A DNA stretch of 64,000 nt, from NCBI RefSeq assembly GCF_000621865.1, contig NZ_JHXE01000009.1, forward strand, positions 1 to 64,000, read 5' to 3'. The translations under genes were made by a program, and so were the position numbers. This document shows, piece by piece, positions 25,556-53,107 of the stretch. The notes under the pieces were generated by a model. It made no database searches and was not told the origin of the DNA. It worked only from the letters and a program-made list of their open reading frames with translations. Numbering within the stretch: the stretch's first letter is position 1; every line of letters begins with the position of its first letter. This DNA is from Pseudobutyrivibrio sp. MD2005 (GTDB lineage: Bacteria; Bacillota; Clostridia; Lachnospirales; Lachnospiraceae).

Positions 25556-27805
25556 ATGACAGCAAACGAATACATCAAGGTGCGCTTCGGCCGCCACATG
25601 AACGAGTGTACAAACGAAGAAATCTACATTGGTCTACTAGAATATGTGAAGGACCAGGCTAAGCGCAAAGACATCGCCGGTGGTAAGAAAAAGCTCTATT
25701 ATATCAGTGCTGAGTTTTTGATTGGAAAGCTATTATCTAATAACTTAATCAACCTTGGTATATACGACGAAGTGAAATCCGAGCTGGAGGCTTGCGGCAA
25801 ATCACTTGCAGAGATAGAGGAAATTGAGGTAGAGCCATCCCTTGGTAATGGTGGATTAGGTCGTCTTGCTGCATGCTTCCTTGATTCCATTGCAACACTA
25901 GGCCTTAATGGTGACGGTGTTGGCCTTGCATATCACATGGGATTGTTTAAGCAGGTGTTCAAGGACAACCTCCAGTGCGAAGAGCCAAATCCATGGATGA
26001 GACACCACAGCTGGATGACTTCTACAGACAGAACATACCAGGTAGATTTTGGTGGCTTCAATGTAAAGAGCCGCATGTACGATATCGATGTTACAGGCTA
26101 CGATTCTGTCACAACAAAGCTTCATCTTTTCGATGTTGAGACAGTAGATGAAAGCATCATCACAGATGGAATTAACTTTGATAAGAGCGAGTTTGCTAAG
26201 AATCTTACACTATTCCTTTATCCAGATGACTCTGACGATAACGGAAGACTGCTTCGTGTATATCAGCAGTATTTCATGGTAAGCAATGCAGCTCAGCTCA
26301 TCCTTGATGAAGCAGTTGAAAAAGGCTCTAATCTAAAGGACCTTCCAGACTATGCTGTAATCCAAATTAACGATACACACCCATCTATGGTAATCCCAGA
26401 ACTTATCAGACTCCTACAAATCCGTGGACTTACAATGGATGAGGCAATTAACGTAGTATCAAAATGCTGCGCATACACCAACCACACAATCCTCGCTGAA
26501 GCTCTTGAAAAATGGCCTATCCACTTTATGATGAAGGCTGTACCTCAGCTTATGCCAATCATCCGCGAGCTTCACAACAGAATCCACATCAAGTACAACA
26601 ACCCTGAGGTAGATATCATCAAGGATGACCTTGTGCACATGGCTCACATGGATATTCACTACGGTATTTCAATCAATGGTGTTGCTGCCCTTCATACAGA
26701 AATCTTGAAGGATACAGAGCTCAATGCATTTTACAAGCTTTATCCAGAAAAATTCAACAACAAGACCAACGGAATCACATTCCGTAGATGGCTTTTATAC
26801 AGCAACCCAGAGCTTTCAAAGCTTATCGAAGAACTTATCGGCCCTGGCTTCAAAAAGGATGCAACAGAGCTCAAGAAGCTTGAGCAATACATGAACGATG
26901 ATGCAGTTGTTCAGCGCTTCCTTGACGTAAAGAACACTCGCAAGGCAGTTCTTAAAAACTATCTTGCAAACACACAGGGCATCAACCTTGACCAAAACAG
27001 CATCTACGACATTCAGGTAAAGCGACTCCACGAGTACAAGCGCCAGCAGATGAACGCCCTCTACGTAATCAACAAATACTTCGAAATTAAGGAAGGCAAG
27101 AAGCCATCACGCCCAATCACAGTTATCTTTGGCGCAAAGGCTGCACCTGCTTACATAATCGCAAAGGACATCATCCATCTTATCCTTTGCTTATCAGAAA
27201 TAATTGAAAAAGACCCAGAGGTAAGCCCATACCTCAAGGTTGTTATGGTAGAAAACTACAACGTAACACTTGCAGAAAAGCTCATCCCTGCATGCGATAT
27301 TCACGAGCAAATCTCGCTTGCATCCAAGGAAGCATCAGGCACATCCAACATGAAGTTTATGCTTAACGGAGCCATAGCTATCGGTACAATGGATGGCGCC
27401 AACGTAGAGATGCACGACTTCGTCGGAGACGACAACATCTTCATCTTTGGTGAAGACTCAGACACCGTAATCAAGCGCTACGCCGACGCAAGCTACTGCT
27501 CACGCGACTACTACGAGAAGGACGCAAACCTCAAAAAATGCGTAGACTTCATCGTATCAGACAAGCTACTGTCCGTAGGCAAGCGCGAAAACCTTGAGCG
27601 CCTCTACAACGAACTCCTTAACAAAGACTGGTTCATGACCTTCCCAGACTTCAAGGACTACTGTGCAACCAAGGAAAAGGCATACGCTGCCTACGAAAAC
27701 CGCACAGAGTGGGGCCGCAAGATGATCAAGAACATCGCCAACGCAGGCTTCTTCTCTAGCGACCGCACCATCGCCCAGTACAACGCCGACATCTGGAAGC
27801 TGTAG
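25556..27805 (+). CDS. glgP: Glycogen/starch phosphorylase
   Basis: The 749-residue GT35 enzyme has [19 protein letters not shown] and the PLP-binding Lys600 in [11 protein letters not shown]. It releases glucose 1-phosphate from alpha-1,4-glucans in the cytoplasm. The ATG at 25556 follows AAGGAGG; the upstream ATG at 25529 lies inside the dispersed repeat and is rejected. It is slightly shorter than E. coli GlgP (about 815 residues), as is usual in Clostridia. Its last codon and stop form the outermost part of a giant palindrome, and codons become C-ending toward the 3' end. Confidence 0.95.
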
Positions 27806-28437
27806 CCCCATCTCGCCGCCTTTACATGCCTGGCCCGCCCCGCCCTTGCTGGTGTGTGGCTGTGGTGCCCTGGGTGGCAGTTGCATCGCAAGAATATTTT
27901 GTTTTTCTAATGCACGACTTTTGGCATCCTTATTTACATGTGTCTTTTGCAGGTCTGTACAGTTTGAAAAAATGTTTTTGGATGGCGGACACACAACACA
28001 ACGATATATGTACTTCTTAGACTGATAGGAACTTGGTTGATTTTGAAGTGCGCTTAGTAACATAAAAGCAGGTTTTGCAATATATAGGTATGCGCTGCCA
28101 TGGACGGCAGCGCAAGTGGTCACTTAAAACACGATGTTGAATGTGCCACGGTACCTAGATATGCAAAACCTGCTTTGTTATGTTACTTAGCAAACGTAAT
28201 ATGAAACCAAGTTCCTATTAGTCTGAGAAGTACAGTTAAAACCTCAGTGTCCGCCATACTTAAAAACATTTTTTACAAACGGTTCATCCCGCAACAAGAC
28301 ACATGTGTGATGCCAAAAGTCGCACATTGAAAAACTAAAAATATTCGCGAAATCACAACTGCCACCCAGGGCACCACAGCCGCGCACCAGCAAGGGCGGG
28401 GCGGGCCCTAATATATGTGGGCGAGATGGGGCTACAG
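27800..28437. repeat. Giant palindromic element, copy 1
   Basis: A 638-bp inverted structure. The outer arm CTGTAGCCCCATCTCGCC (27800-27817) pairs perfectly with 28420-28437, and a second GC-rich arm (about 27832-27883) pairs with about 28356-28407. The shared core (27888-28349) folds on itself down to the 15-bp stem AAAGCAGGTTTTGCA (28065-28079)/28162-28176. It carries a terminal hairpin GCGCTGCC-N6-GGCAGCGC (28092-28113) and a second, copy-specific hairpin. It contains no credible gene. The arm includes the last glgP codon and stop. Copies 2 and 3 share the core but not the arms. Confidence 0.85.
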
Positions 28438-33716: not shown

Positions 33717-34538
33717 ATGAAATATAAACATTTTTTCAAAGTAGGGAGAACCGTCGCAGTTAGCATGGTAGCCCTACTTTGTTCTTTTATACTCTTTAGT
33801 GAGTTTAGTTATTTGCCAGCCAATGCAGATGAGGATATCGTGGTGCAGATCGTGGCTCACCGTGGCTACTCAGGACAGTATCCTGAGAACACTTTGAGCG
33901 CATTTGCAGGCGCCTATGCAGCTGGTGCTAAAACAGTAGAATTCGACGTCAGAAAAACTAAAGACGGACAGCTTGTCATCTTCCACGACGACACCCTGGA
34001 GAAATTCACTGGTGACAACAGCACCATAGCCGACCACACCTACGAAGAACTCCTACAAATTGATGCAGGCAGATGGTTTGGACGTGAATACAGCATGGAG
34101 CGCATCCCAACTCTCGACCAAACCCTGGATTTGTTATCCACCACCAATATGCGCATATTCTGCGAGCTCAAAAACATCGGAGACGACCCTGAGTTTGCAT
34201 CTCAGGTTTACCAAAAATGTGCAGAATATGGCGTCCTGGATCGCGTAATATTCCTATCATTCAACTACGACTACCTCAACGCCATCAAAGAATTAGACCC
34301 GGCACAGCCGATAATGGTACTGGCATCCTTCGGAAAATCCAATCTTCCGAGCCGCTACCCAGCCGAGTACTACGGAGTCAACATGAAGACTCTCACCCCT
34401 AAAACTATACGCGCCATCCATGACGCCGGCTCAAAGGTCTACACCTACACGCCCGAAACCAAAGGGCAAATGCTATCCCTTCAGCGTCTCGGCGTCGACG
34501 GCGTCATAACCGACTACGCCGACATCAGCATGCTCTGA
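33717..34538 (+). CDS. Secreted or membrane-anchored glycerophosphodiester phosphodiesterase
   Basis: The 273-residue protein has an N-terminal hydrophobic signal or anchor (about 10-32). The GDPD TIM-barrel motifs follow: AHRGYSGQYPENT (catalytic His), EFDVRKTKDGQLVIFHD (metal Glu/Asp and second His) and FCELK. It hydrolyses glycerophosphodiesters to glycerol 3-phosphate and an alcohol, so it may act on teichoic acid or phospholipid parts. ATG 33717 has better spacing to the GAGGGGG than TTG 33711. Of its last 38 codons 24 end in C and 2 in T, unlike its neighbours. Confidence 0.9.
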   Translation: MKYKHFFKVGRTVAVSMVALLCSFILFSEFSYLPANADEDIVVQIVAHRGYSGQYPENTLSAFAGAYAAGAKTVEFDVRKTKDGQLVIFHDDTLEKFTGDNSTIADHTYEELLQIDAGRWFGREYSMERIPTLDQTLDLLSTTNMRIFCELKNIGDDPEFASQVYQKCAEYGVLDRVIFLSFNYDYLNAIKELDPAQPIMVLASFGKSNLPSRYPAEYYGVNMKTLTPKTIRAIHDAGSKVYTYTPETKGQMLSLQRLGVDGVITDYADISML

Positions 34539-34540
34539 CG

Positions 34541-35171
34541 GCCCCGCCCCGCGCCCGCCAATAGAGAGGGGCACACACCACAGGCCTGACGTAGGCGGGA
34601 TTACCATGTACCACTGGGGTGATTTCGCGAATATTTTTAGTTTTTCAATGGGCAAAAATTAGGCATCACACATGTGTCTTGTTGCGGGATGAACCGTTTG
34701 AAAAAAATGTTTTATTCATTGGCGGACACTGAAGTTTTTATTGTACTTCTTAGGCTAAGGGGACTTGGTTTCATATTACGTTTGCTAAGTAACATAACAA
34801 AGCAGGTTTTGCATATCTAGGTACCGTGGCACATTCAACATCGTGTTTTAAGTGACCACTTGCGCTGCCGTCCGTGGCAGCGCATACCTATATATTGCAA
34901 AACCTGCTTTTATGTTACTAAGCGCACTTCAAAATCAACCAAGTTCCCCTTAGTCTAAGAAGTACATTTTAATTTAGTGTGTGTGTCCGCCAATAGAAAA
35001 CATTTTTTCAAACTGTACAGACCTGCAAAAGACACATGTAAATAAGGATGCCTAATTTGCCCATTAGAAAAACAAAATATTCTTGCGATGCCCCAGTGGT
35101 ACATGGTAATCCCACCGTACGACAGGCCTGTGGTGTGTGCTGTAGAGAAAAATAGCGGGCGCGGGCGGGGC
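34541..35171. repeat. Giant palindromic element, copy 2 (inverted core)
   Basis: A 631-bp inverted structure that begins 3 bases after the GDPD stop codon. The outer arms (34541-34558 with 35155-35171; about 34570-34620 with about 35090-35140) are GC-rich, pair with each other and are unrelated to the arms of copies 1 and 3. The core (34626-35086) is the copy 1 core in reverse orientation, with the same terminal hairpin (GCGCTGCC variant, 34863-34884). No gene is credible inside. Confidence 0.85.
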
Positions 35172-52508: not shown

Positions 52509-53107
52509 TTGCCGCCATTCATAGTGCAGACAAACGAGAGGTGGCTCACGCTACATACCAAGCCAGTAACTGAATATTGCAAGAATATTTGGTTTTTCTA
52601 ATGGGCAATTTAGACATATTTATTTACATGTGTCTTTTGCAGGTTTGTACAGTTTAAAAAAATGGTTTTATTTGGCGGACACAATTATTAAAGTAAAGTG
52701 TACTTCTTAGGCTAAGAGGGAACTTGGTTGATTTTGGAATGAGCTTAGTAACAAAAAAGCAGGTTTTGCAATATATAGGTATGCGCTGCCATGGACGGCA
52801 GCGCAAGTGCGCAAGCGACACGACGTCGCATGGAGCACGGTACCTAGATATGTAAAACCTGCTTTGTCTTGTTACTTAGCAAATGTAATATGAAACCAAG
52901 TCCCCTTAGACCAAGAAGTACAATAAAAACTACAGTGTCCGCCAATAAAAACCATTTTTTAAAACAGTTCATCCCGCAACAAGACACATGTGTTATGCCT
53001 AAATTTTGCCCATTGAAAAACTACAAATATTCGCAAAATCATTCAGTTACCGGCTTGGTATGCAGCGTGACCATACACTACTATAACAGCACTGTGAATG
53101 GCGGCAA
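52509..53107. repeat. Giant palindromic element, copy 3
   Basis: A 599-bp inverted structure that starts 5 bases after the rpiR-like stop. The outermost arms TTGCCGCCATTCA (52509-52521) and TGAATGGCGGCAA (53095-53107) pair perfectly, and a second pair of arms (about 52540-52574 / 53041-53074) follows. The core (52579-53035) has the orientation of copy 1 and the same hairpin GCGCTGCC-N6-GGCAGCGC. The second apical hairpin here is GTGC-GCAA-GCGAC/GTCGC-ATGGA-GCAC, different in sequence but again paired. The ORFs inside are not credible genes. Confidence 0.85.

Follow-up and report, generated by a model that had tools for sequence, protein, structure and literature searches.

Background

Within 64,000 nucleotides of the genome of Pseudobutyrivibrio sp. 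MD2005 (contig NZ_JHXE01000009.1, positions 1 to 64,000, called the window below) there are three stretches of DNA that fold back on themselves almost end to end. What are they, and how does each of them come to match itself so well? In our opinion, each palindrome is probably a copy of a non-autonomous fold-back (MITE-like) transposable element, which is apparently mobile and whose two arms are matched at the level of DNA. Below we describe the palindromes and their relatives, and discuss other suggestions where the evidence touches them.

Anatomy of the palindromes

The three predicted palindromes of about 600-640 bp are present at 27800-28437, 34541-35171 and 52509-53107. Their parts are as follows.

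27800..28437, + strand: copy 1 (L004), complete palindrome of 638 bp, from arm extension and folding
27800..27883, + strand: copy 1, left outer arm, pairs with 28356-28437, sequence specific to this copy
27884..28355, + strand: copy 1, core common to the other copies, imperfect arms with bubbles (edges by eye)
28041..28202, + strand: copy 1, apex, RF01731 TwoAYGGAY, 83.1 bits
28092..28113, + strand: copy 1, apical hairpin with ANGGA loop, GCGCTGCC ATGGAC GGCAGCGC
28356..28437, + strand: copy 1, right outer arm, copy-specific
34541..35171, - strand: copy 2 (L006), complete palindrome of 631 bp with reversed core, from arm extension
34620..35090, - strand: copy 2, core (edges by eye)
34773..34934, - strand: copy 2, apex, RF01731 TwoAYGGAY, 83.0 bits
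34862..34883, - strand: copy 2, apical hairpin; its loop reads ACGGAC on the - strand
52509..53107, + strand: copy 3 (L013), complete palindrome of 599 bp, from arm extension
52576..53040, + strand: copy 3, core (edges by eye)
52733..52890, + strand: copy 3, apex, RF01731 TwoAYGGAY, 80.6 bits
52783..52804, + strand: copy 3, apical hairpin, loop ATGGAC

The 5' end of copy 1 overlaps the stop codon of a gene ending at 27805, while copies 2 and 3 begin 3 nt and 5 nt past the stops of genes ending at 34538 and 52504. Copy 1 folds with -401 kcal/mol, compared to -190 +/- 5.6 for 20 dinucleotide shuffles (z = -38). The original prediction also spoke of a common core and of the lack of a credible gene, and both observations hold. 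The core (~470 bp) is inverted in copy 2 and contains the apical hairpin GCGCTGCC-ATGGAC-GGCAGCGC. No ORF of at least 100 aa, and no transposase gene of that size, lies wholly within any of the three palindromes, as would be expected of a non-autonomous transposon. Copies 1 and 3 are overlapped by three ORFs of 106-185 aa, all of which continue outside the palindrome.

Each arm ends in a stretch of ~67-84 bp (edges by eye) that is not shared among the three window copies. Judged by eye, the layout from the apex outward is the RF01731 motif followed by core arms of ~145-155 nt, with bubbles recurring at like places. Beyond them come a small bubble, a nearly perfect outer arm of ~40 bp, a bubble of roughly 10-20 nt in most of the copies shown, and a distal stem of ~15 bp, which in a young subfamily is GTTACCATTCACAG/CTGTGAATGGTAAC.

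The apex is a described RNA motif

The expectation that no described family would be matched fails, as the apex of all three window palindromes is Rfam RF01731 (TwoAYGGAY), a match of the kind that the original prediction gave as its refutation. This RNA was described by Weinberg et al. 2010 (PMC2864571); Rfam classes it as Cis-reg and models it with 168 positions. The Rfam search gives a divided answer: the apex (~160 nt) is covered by the match and the remaining ~450 nt of the palindrome have none. The window copies score 80.6-83.1 bits over model positions 1-168 of 168, where the gathering score is 43, and this cut-off is exceeded by 49/49 matches in the same genome, each over the whole model.

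ANGGA occupies the apical hairpin loop in 46 of 48 own-genome copies (one at a contig end was left out, here and in the apex pair count below) and its reverse-strand form in 0/48, counts that are not independent because the copies share descent. The second base of the loop varies (ATGGA, ACGGA, AAGGA). A second ANGGA hairpin passes a strict stem test in none of these 48 copies. Since just one of the two name-giving AYGGAY-type loops is kept, the own-genome copies are divergent members of RF01731 by score only. Among 19 copies from the rest of Pseudobutyrivibrio and from the two genera nearest to it (22 of 29 loci processed, three dropped at contig ends), 13 have at least one ANGGA hairpin and 2 have two. 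In other genera of the family (3/19 and 4/40 loci dropped at contig ends) the strict stem test gives at least one in 28/52 and two in 5/52.

It has been proposed that TwoAYGGAY binds CsrA, and the external stem of the Rfam model is described as poorly conserved (PMC4333381). A one-strand ANGGA loop would be fitting for this proposal, and in a transcript the apical loop would probably form a binding hairpin of the CsrA type. As in CsrA-binding RNAs of the CsrB/RsmZ type, ANGGA lies in a stable hairpin loop. Those RNAs, however, carry numerous sites per RNA, while the own-genome palindromes have one putative hairpin per copy; unlike them, the copies are dispersed at gene ends, and CsrA binding is here predicted from sequence. 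The context also differs from TwoAYGGAY as modelled by Rfam: the motif stands at the tip of a 600-640 bp palindrome whose arms are specific to each copy, and young copies have ends like those of a transposon, outside the 168-position model.

A dispersed family with signs of mobility

The best named relatives of an adjacent 758-aa gene nearly all belong to Pseudobutyrivibrio, a genus of Lachnospiraceae. The genome contains 49 dispersed RF01731 matches, 43 of which extend to a full palindrome; in addition there are two copies broken by runs of N (L189 and L190) and half a copy (L191). The total length is 560-670 bp in 39 of these 43. RF01731 is present in 29 genomes among 61 relatives; two of these belong to other genera and the remaining 27 to the genus itself, which is represented by 29 genomes (our own counted). 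Matches were also found in 45 of 299 genomes drawn from Lachnospiraceae, in 43 of them over the cut-off and in many of them several times. Across the genus their number is irregular, from 0 to 49 per genome.

Terminal inverted repeats, GTTACCATTCACAG...CTGTGAATGGTAAC, bound the young subfamily and are not recognisable in the three window copies. Because the termini of older copies no longer resemble GTTACCATTCACAG, we can only infer that these copies, the window's included, descend from a GTTACCATTCACAG-ended form. A perfect 8-bp direct repeat is found at the ends of 7 of 58 copies (6/49 own and 4/19 others were dropped), compared to 0.2% in a mismatched-flank null. In six of them (L019, L031, L037, L038, L040 and L054) it is at the terminal repeat or a few nt from it; in L026 it is ~12 nt away and may be due to chance. 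In the remaining 51 of 58, including all three window copies, a perfect 8-bp repeat is absent.

The site of copy 1 is empty in several congeners. A survey of 30 loci from 29 genomes (24 loci could be placed) yielded 8 in which the aligned gene tail and the aligned sequence downstream are no more than 49-100 nt apart. The giant hairpin is present in three (our own, L161 and L162); the rest of the placed loci hold other or unresolved sequence, with an RF01731 match beside the gene in G014.

The copies tend to adjoin gene ends. A facing stop codon lies within 15 nt in 25 of 39 copies, at a median distance of 7 (4/43 without a facing stop left out). The genes on either side of 43 own copies are tandem in 29 cases, convergent in 10 and divergent in 4; for comparison, the window's own 48 gene gaps comprise 36, 6 and 6. 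The core is oriented in the same way as the gene whose stop adjoins it in 22 cases and in the opposite way in 17.

Arms matched within copies and diverged between them

For the outer arms of the 43 own copies, median identity is 0.87 within a copy versus 0.51 between copies, with shuffled sequences giving 0.42 (in this comparison and in the mismatch count below, 6/49 own and 5/19 other copies with short palindromes were left out). For the core the values are 0.77 to other copies versus 0.79 to its own other arm. The best match is the own opposite arm for 40 of 43 outer arms and 4 of 43 cores. When cores are 85-90% alike, outer arms stand at 0.48, near the shuffled level, and at 0.63 when cores are 90-95% alike. 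In 14 copies from other species the own opposite arm is best for 12 outer arms and 11 cores. For all 52 arms from other genera the match to the partner ranks above 95% of mismatched arms; only 7 of the 52 beat the best mismatched score, probably because copies within one genome can share arms.

What keeps the arms matched? One possible answer is selection on RNA. The palindrome would then be a structured RNA, a CsrB-like small RNA that sequesters CsrA, with a long basal stem under compensatory selection at the RNA level and with incidental dispersal. The classification of RF01731 as a cis-regulatory RNA speaks for it, and so does the restriction of the ANGGA loop to one strand in 46/48 copies. 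The outer arms speak against it. Their mismatches over 57 copies comprise 35 of GU type, 27 of AC type and 72 transversions, and those of other genera (42/52 copies with a clear arm match) 64, 67 and 179, while 10 TPP riboswitches of relatives, counted on the Rfam structure, have GU 20 and AC 4 of 266 pairs. The outer-arm counts lack the clear G-U preference of TPP, and the outer stem therefore does not look as if it were kept in the way RNA helices usually are.

The apex gives a mixed picture. In Infernal alignments, which favour GU, ten TwoAYGGAY rows have GU 10 and AC 2 of 538 pairs. This has an RNA-like sign, as does the own-genome count by MAFFT/RNAalifold (48 copies; GU 51, AC 11), though 41 of the 51 are at one pair. 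Against RNA, the GU share in the Infernal-aligned rows is 1.9% at the apex versus 7.5% in TPP. By MAFFT/RNAalifold the 19 relatives' copies have GU 17 and AC 21 and the 52 other-genera sequences GU 43 and AC 44. TPP treated by MAFFT and RNAalifold gave GU 24 and AC 0 with just 8 pairs found in 24 sequences (30 loci returned; 4 of 28 dropped at contig ends). Because there were only 8 pairs, we replaced this control by the counts on Rfam structures (10 TPP, 10 TwoAYGGAY).

The Rfam-structure control is less one-sided than the MAFFT/RNAalifold TPP control, with GU 10 and AC 2 at the apex.

Selection on RNA also sits poorly with the two orientations of the core relative to the adjoining gene (22 same, 17 opposite), with the target duplications and with the empty sites. 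All in all we see this explanation as possible, though on the unlikely side.

Inverted cores between the same flanks

Two sister species among the congeners, G012 and G020, have insertions in common, which makes it possible to follow single palindromes. At one such insertion (L216/L213) the core is inverted in place: both flanks are reversed relative to the core, and the cores differ at 23/398 positions in RF01731 orientation versus 68/364 the other way. The outer arms of this pair differ at 11/84 and 7/84 positions (plus gaps) and the flanks at 20/600 and 19/600. At L206/L203 the core is also inverted, with 15/302 differences and with one flank only, the other being a contig end. Cores are without inversion at L218/L219 (5/401 core differences; outer arms 0/81 and 2/85, plus gaps; flanks 9/599 and, on the right, 43/599) and at L161/L162. 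That the arms of L218/L219 changed less than the right flank speaks against our explanation. It should also be noted that the palindromes in which we see the inversions come from draft assemblies.

A further candidate for inversion, L201/L215, was rejected as the cores differ at 69/387 positions; these are probably different insertions.

Most arm changes in orthologous pairs are one-sided, and some of those at L161/L162 are clustered, for example CAGG versus CCTG. The step from a one-sided change to re-matched arms was not caught in the pairs compared. A process that might link these observations has been described. When the template is switched between inverted repeats, their arms become homogenised, spacers are inverted and multinucleotide mutations arise (PMC8604942); such switching can also maintain stems (PMC8794818). 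Core inversion and clustered changes are its published footprints, and we infer that arm homogenisation at the DNA level by template switching would act on the palindromes. The likeness to the template-switched repeats of these two papers thus covers arm homogenisation, spacer inversion and multinucleotide changes; the cases described there include yeast coding repeats and RNA genes, while here we deal with a bacterial mobile element family.

A different process at the DNA level can be imagined. The original prediction contemplated a substrate for a single-strand DNA enzyme, and the palindrome could be a single-strand DNA hairpin element of a rolling-hairpin or attC-like kind, in which the folded strand is the substrate of transposition. 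Fold-back priming would re-synthesise one outer arm per transposition, resulting in perfect but new arms. Integron attC sites and the rolling-hairpin ends of parvoviruses keep structure with little sequence conservation, have bubbles and show flip and flop, and rolling-hairpin replication can leave a core in one orientation or the other while the flanks stay unchanged. The palindromes resemble them in keeping structure with little sequence conservation, in bubbles that recur among copies and in the two orientations of the core between the same flanks. By eye, some copies have perfect outer arms of 40-57 bp and less perfect cores, and the mostly one-sided arm changes after insertion are also what this explanation would have. 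However, fill-in would erase the bubble that separates the 40-bp arm from the distal repeat, and this bubble is seen in most copies shown. Unlike attC sites and parvovirus ends, the family has 8-bp target duplications, whose constant length better suits a DDE transposase. We therefore judge a single-strand DNA element to be rather unlikely.

Elements with the same ends and the search for a mobiliser

The ends are not restricted to the palindromes. The repeat, GTTAC[CT]ATTCACAG, also bounds a two-hairpin MITE of ~192 bp in the genus, which fits 15 loci from 10 genomes, all chosen for that spacing; by eye, a near 8-bp repeat (7/8) is present only at L225, and the pair count is GU 21 and AC 5. 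A giant palindrome of 744 bp with the same ends and without an Rfam match occurs in another genus, with a target repeat of 8/8 in L242 and 7/8 in L243 (by eye, as are the values for L241, L247 and L250). The same ends are found in L241 (8/8) and L247 (7/8), in a shortened relative of 427 bp without a target repeat (L244), and in palindromes of 31 and 46 bp; among these, L250 has a repeat of 7/8 and L245 and L246 have none. In the most repeat-rich genome there are 147 + 135 terminal-repeat sites with one mismatch allowed, compared to 1 + 0 for the reversed control.

What moves these elements? An IS4-family element bounded by the terminal repeat, L240, at first seemed a likely source of the transposase; it has 1748 bp between two GTTACTATTCACAGT ends and matches NF033592 with 167.9 bits versus a cut-off of 115. 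Its transposase is absent from our own genome, and a sequence search of solved structures gave no match to an IS4 transposase. We dropped the IS4-family transposase as the mobiliser: its relatives in the genus have another end, CAATGTCATTAAGTTAA, and lie inside hairpin loops with ~10-bp duplications. L240 is probably a passenger that favours such loops. Besides L240, we saw no autonomous partner at the sites of the terminal repeat that were listed for the genus, at those listed, up to a maximum per genome, for 299 family genomes, or at 100 of the 282 such sites in the most repeat-rich genome. The mobilising transposase was thus not found among the matches listed for the genus, the family genomes and the most repeat-rich genome.

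The IS4-family relatives suggest one more explanation. L255, L256, L258 and L260 sit, by eye, in terminator-like hairpin loops with ~10-bp duplications. Likewise, the core of the giant palindromes might have been inserted into the loop of a terminator or another hairpin that was already there and now forms the outer arms, and the variety of arms would be a variety of targets. The position of the copies at gene ends, where terminators are, would agree. Yet the total length is nearly constant (560-670 bp in 39/43 full copies), and young copies have related outer arms and the same distal repeat. As their 8-bp duplications also lie outside the arms, the arms of young copies travel with the element, and for these copies we reject terminators as the source of the arms. 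For the family as a whole this origin is very improbable. That the palindromes are chromosome-organising or nucleoid sites is hardly credible, given the irregular distribution in the genus (0 to 49 matches) and the mobile signature of target duplications and empty sites; being multi-copy and dispersed is all that speaks for it.

How the palindromes might move and persist

We return to the mobile fold-back element. It is preferred to a long RNA or a chromosome site because of the 49 RF01731 matches, some 8-bp duplications and the empty sites in congeners. Of the earlier view, the idea that something happens at the level of DNA holds; the very long structured RNA and the chromosome-organising site yield to a mobile element, which explains the copies better. 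It was also right that this is no ordinary short MITE. In common with MITEs and fold-back elements, the palindromes are non-coding and present in many copies, the young ones showing 8-bp target duplications as well as inverted repeats at their termini, and mobilisation in trans is implied. Unlike MITEs, they are palindromic almost end to end, their core is structured and conserved, their arms evolve in concert, and they are about three times as long as the ~192-bp MITE with nearly the same ends.

The following scenario can be suggested. A transposase acting in trans would move the fold-back element. Once inserted, the long hairpin would make the replication machinery switch template between the arms. 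Such a switch would copy one arm onto the other, so that complementarity of the DNA is kept while the sequence drifts fast; at times it would invert the core and leave clustered changes. Selection would keep the core bubbles and the ANGGA apical loop, and for this reason only the outer arms would drift.

Long palindromes have to be tolerated. SbcCD attacks long hairpins in E. coli. SbcD is found over the curated cut-off in 3 of 29 genus genomes versus 18 of 32 other relatives (Fisher p = 0.0002, ignoring phylogeny and draft quality); G012 has two sub-threshold pieces and our own genome a weak partial match only. A link between the scarcity of SbcD and tolerance of palindromes is suggestive only, because the three genus genomes with SbcD hold RF01731 copies as well.

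Implications

A dispersed fold-back element is in itself of a known kind. What is unusual is the self-matching of the arms, probably at the DNA level, together with the cap formed by an RNA motif. In the open-licence literature we found no paper that describes TwoAYGGAY as a mobile palindrome, and no record of a DNA-level origin of the RF01731 outer stem or of an invertible CsrA site. Both this origin and the possibly invertible site would be new.

A more speculative suggestion, which we put forward as doubtful, is that RF01731 caps a mobile palindrome which perfects itself: template switching both maintains the stem and inverts the core, toggling a predicted CsrA hairpin in the 3' UTR of the neighbouring gene. 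If CsrA binds, its site would pass from the sense to the antisense strand of that gene, or back, whenever the core is inverted in place. If this is true, many genes would be coupled to a global regulator by a switch that is carried by a transposon and needs no recombinase.

Whatever the apical loop does, an orphan Rfam family gains a physical context, as 43 of the 49 own-genome matches to RF01731 cap a giant palindrome. There is also a warning in it: covariation in alignments of the Rfam type can stem from a process at the level of DNA. One genome has 43 copies of full size, and cores are found inverted between sister species of the genus, so that these bacteria offer a natural laboratory for the question of how long palindromes persist in bacteria and rewrite themselves.

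Relatives of the RF01731 palindromes

The terminal inverted repeat that bounds the young subfamily of RF01731 palindromes also bounds two 744-bp palindromes elsewhere in the family, in a different genus, and neither of them has an Rfam match. The palindrome of locus L242 has a minimum free energy of -472 kcal/mol.

L242, 382-1125: giant palindrome, 744 bp
L243, 419-1162: giant palindrome, 744 bp

The same repeat bounds a second MITE in other Pseudobutyrivibrio genomes, which contains two hairpins whose stem sequences differ among loci while their pairing is kept, and whose interior is found in either orientation.

L221-L229 and L231-L236: MITE, about 192 bp, ends GTTACTATTCACAG

Among 57 copies, read in RF01731 orientation, the right outer arm is G-rich (G 794, C 572, A 471, T 401), in contrast to the A-rich core.

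Particular insertion sites

Genus g9 has a pair of RF01731 copies in head-to-head arrangement, flanked by convergent genes.

L193, 1779-2357: RF01731 copy
L194, 1806-2434: RF01731 copy

The site that copy 1 occupies in the window, 3' of the pflB-type gene, holds by eye a different hairpin-like insert of roughly 100 nt in four loci (L167, L173, L174 and L178), of the type GCTAGTAGCTATCAAGCTC...GAGAGCGTAACTAGC. Elements of the IS4 family, also read by eye, occupy the loops of hairpins that resemble terminators, and their target duplications measure about 10 bp.

L255, L256, L258, L260: IS4-family elements, ends CAATGTCATTAAGTTAA

Assembly and tolerance of giant palindromes

Two further copies in the window's own genome (L189 and L190) are broken up by runs of N; one possible reason is that palindromes are difficult to assemble. 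SbcCD attacks long hairpins in E. coli. Canonical SbcD scored over the cut-off in only 3 of the 29 Pseudobutyrivibrio genomes, compared to 18 of 32 other relatives. That most of the genus lacks canonical SbcD may be part of the reason why it tolerates giant palindromes.
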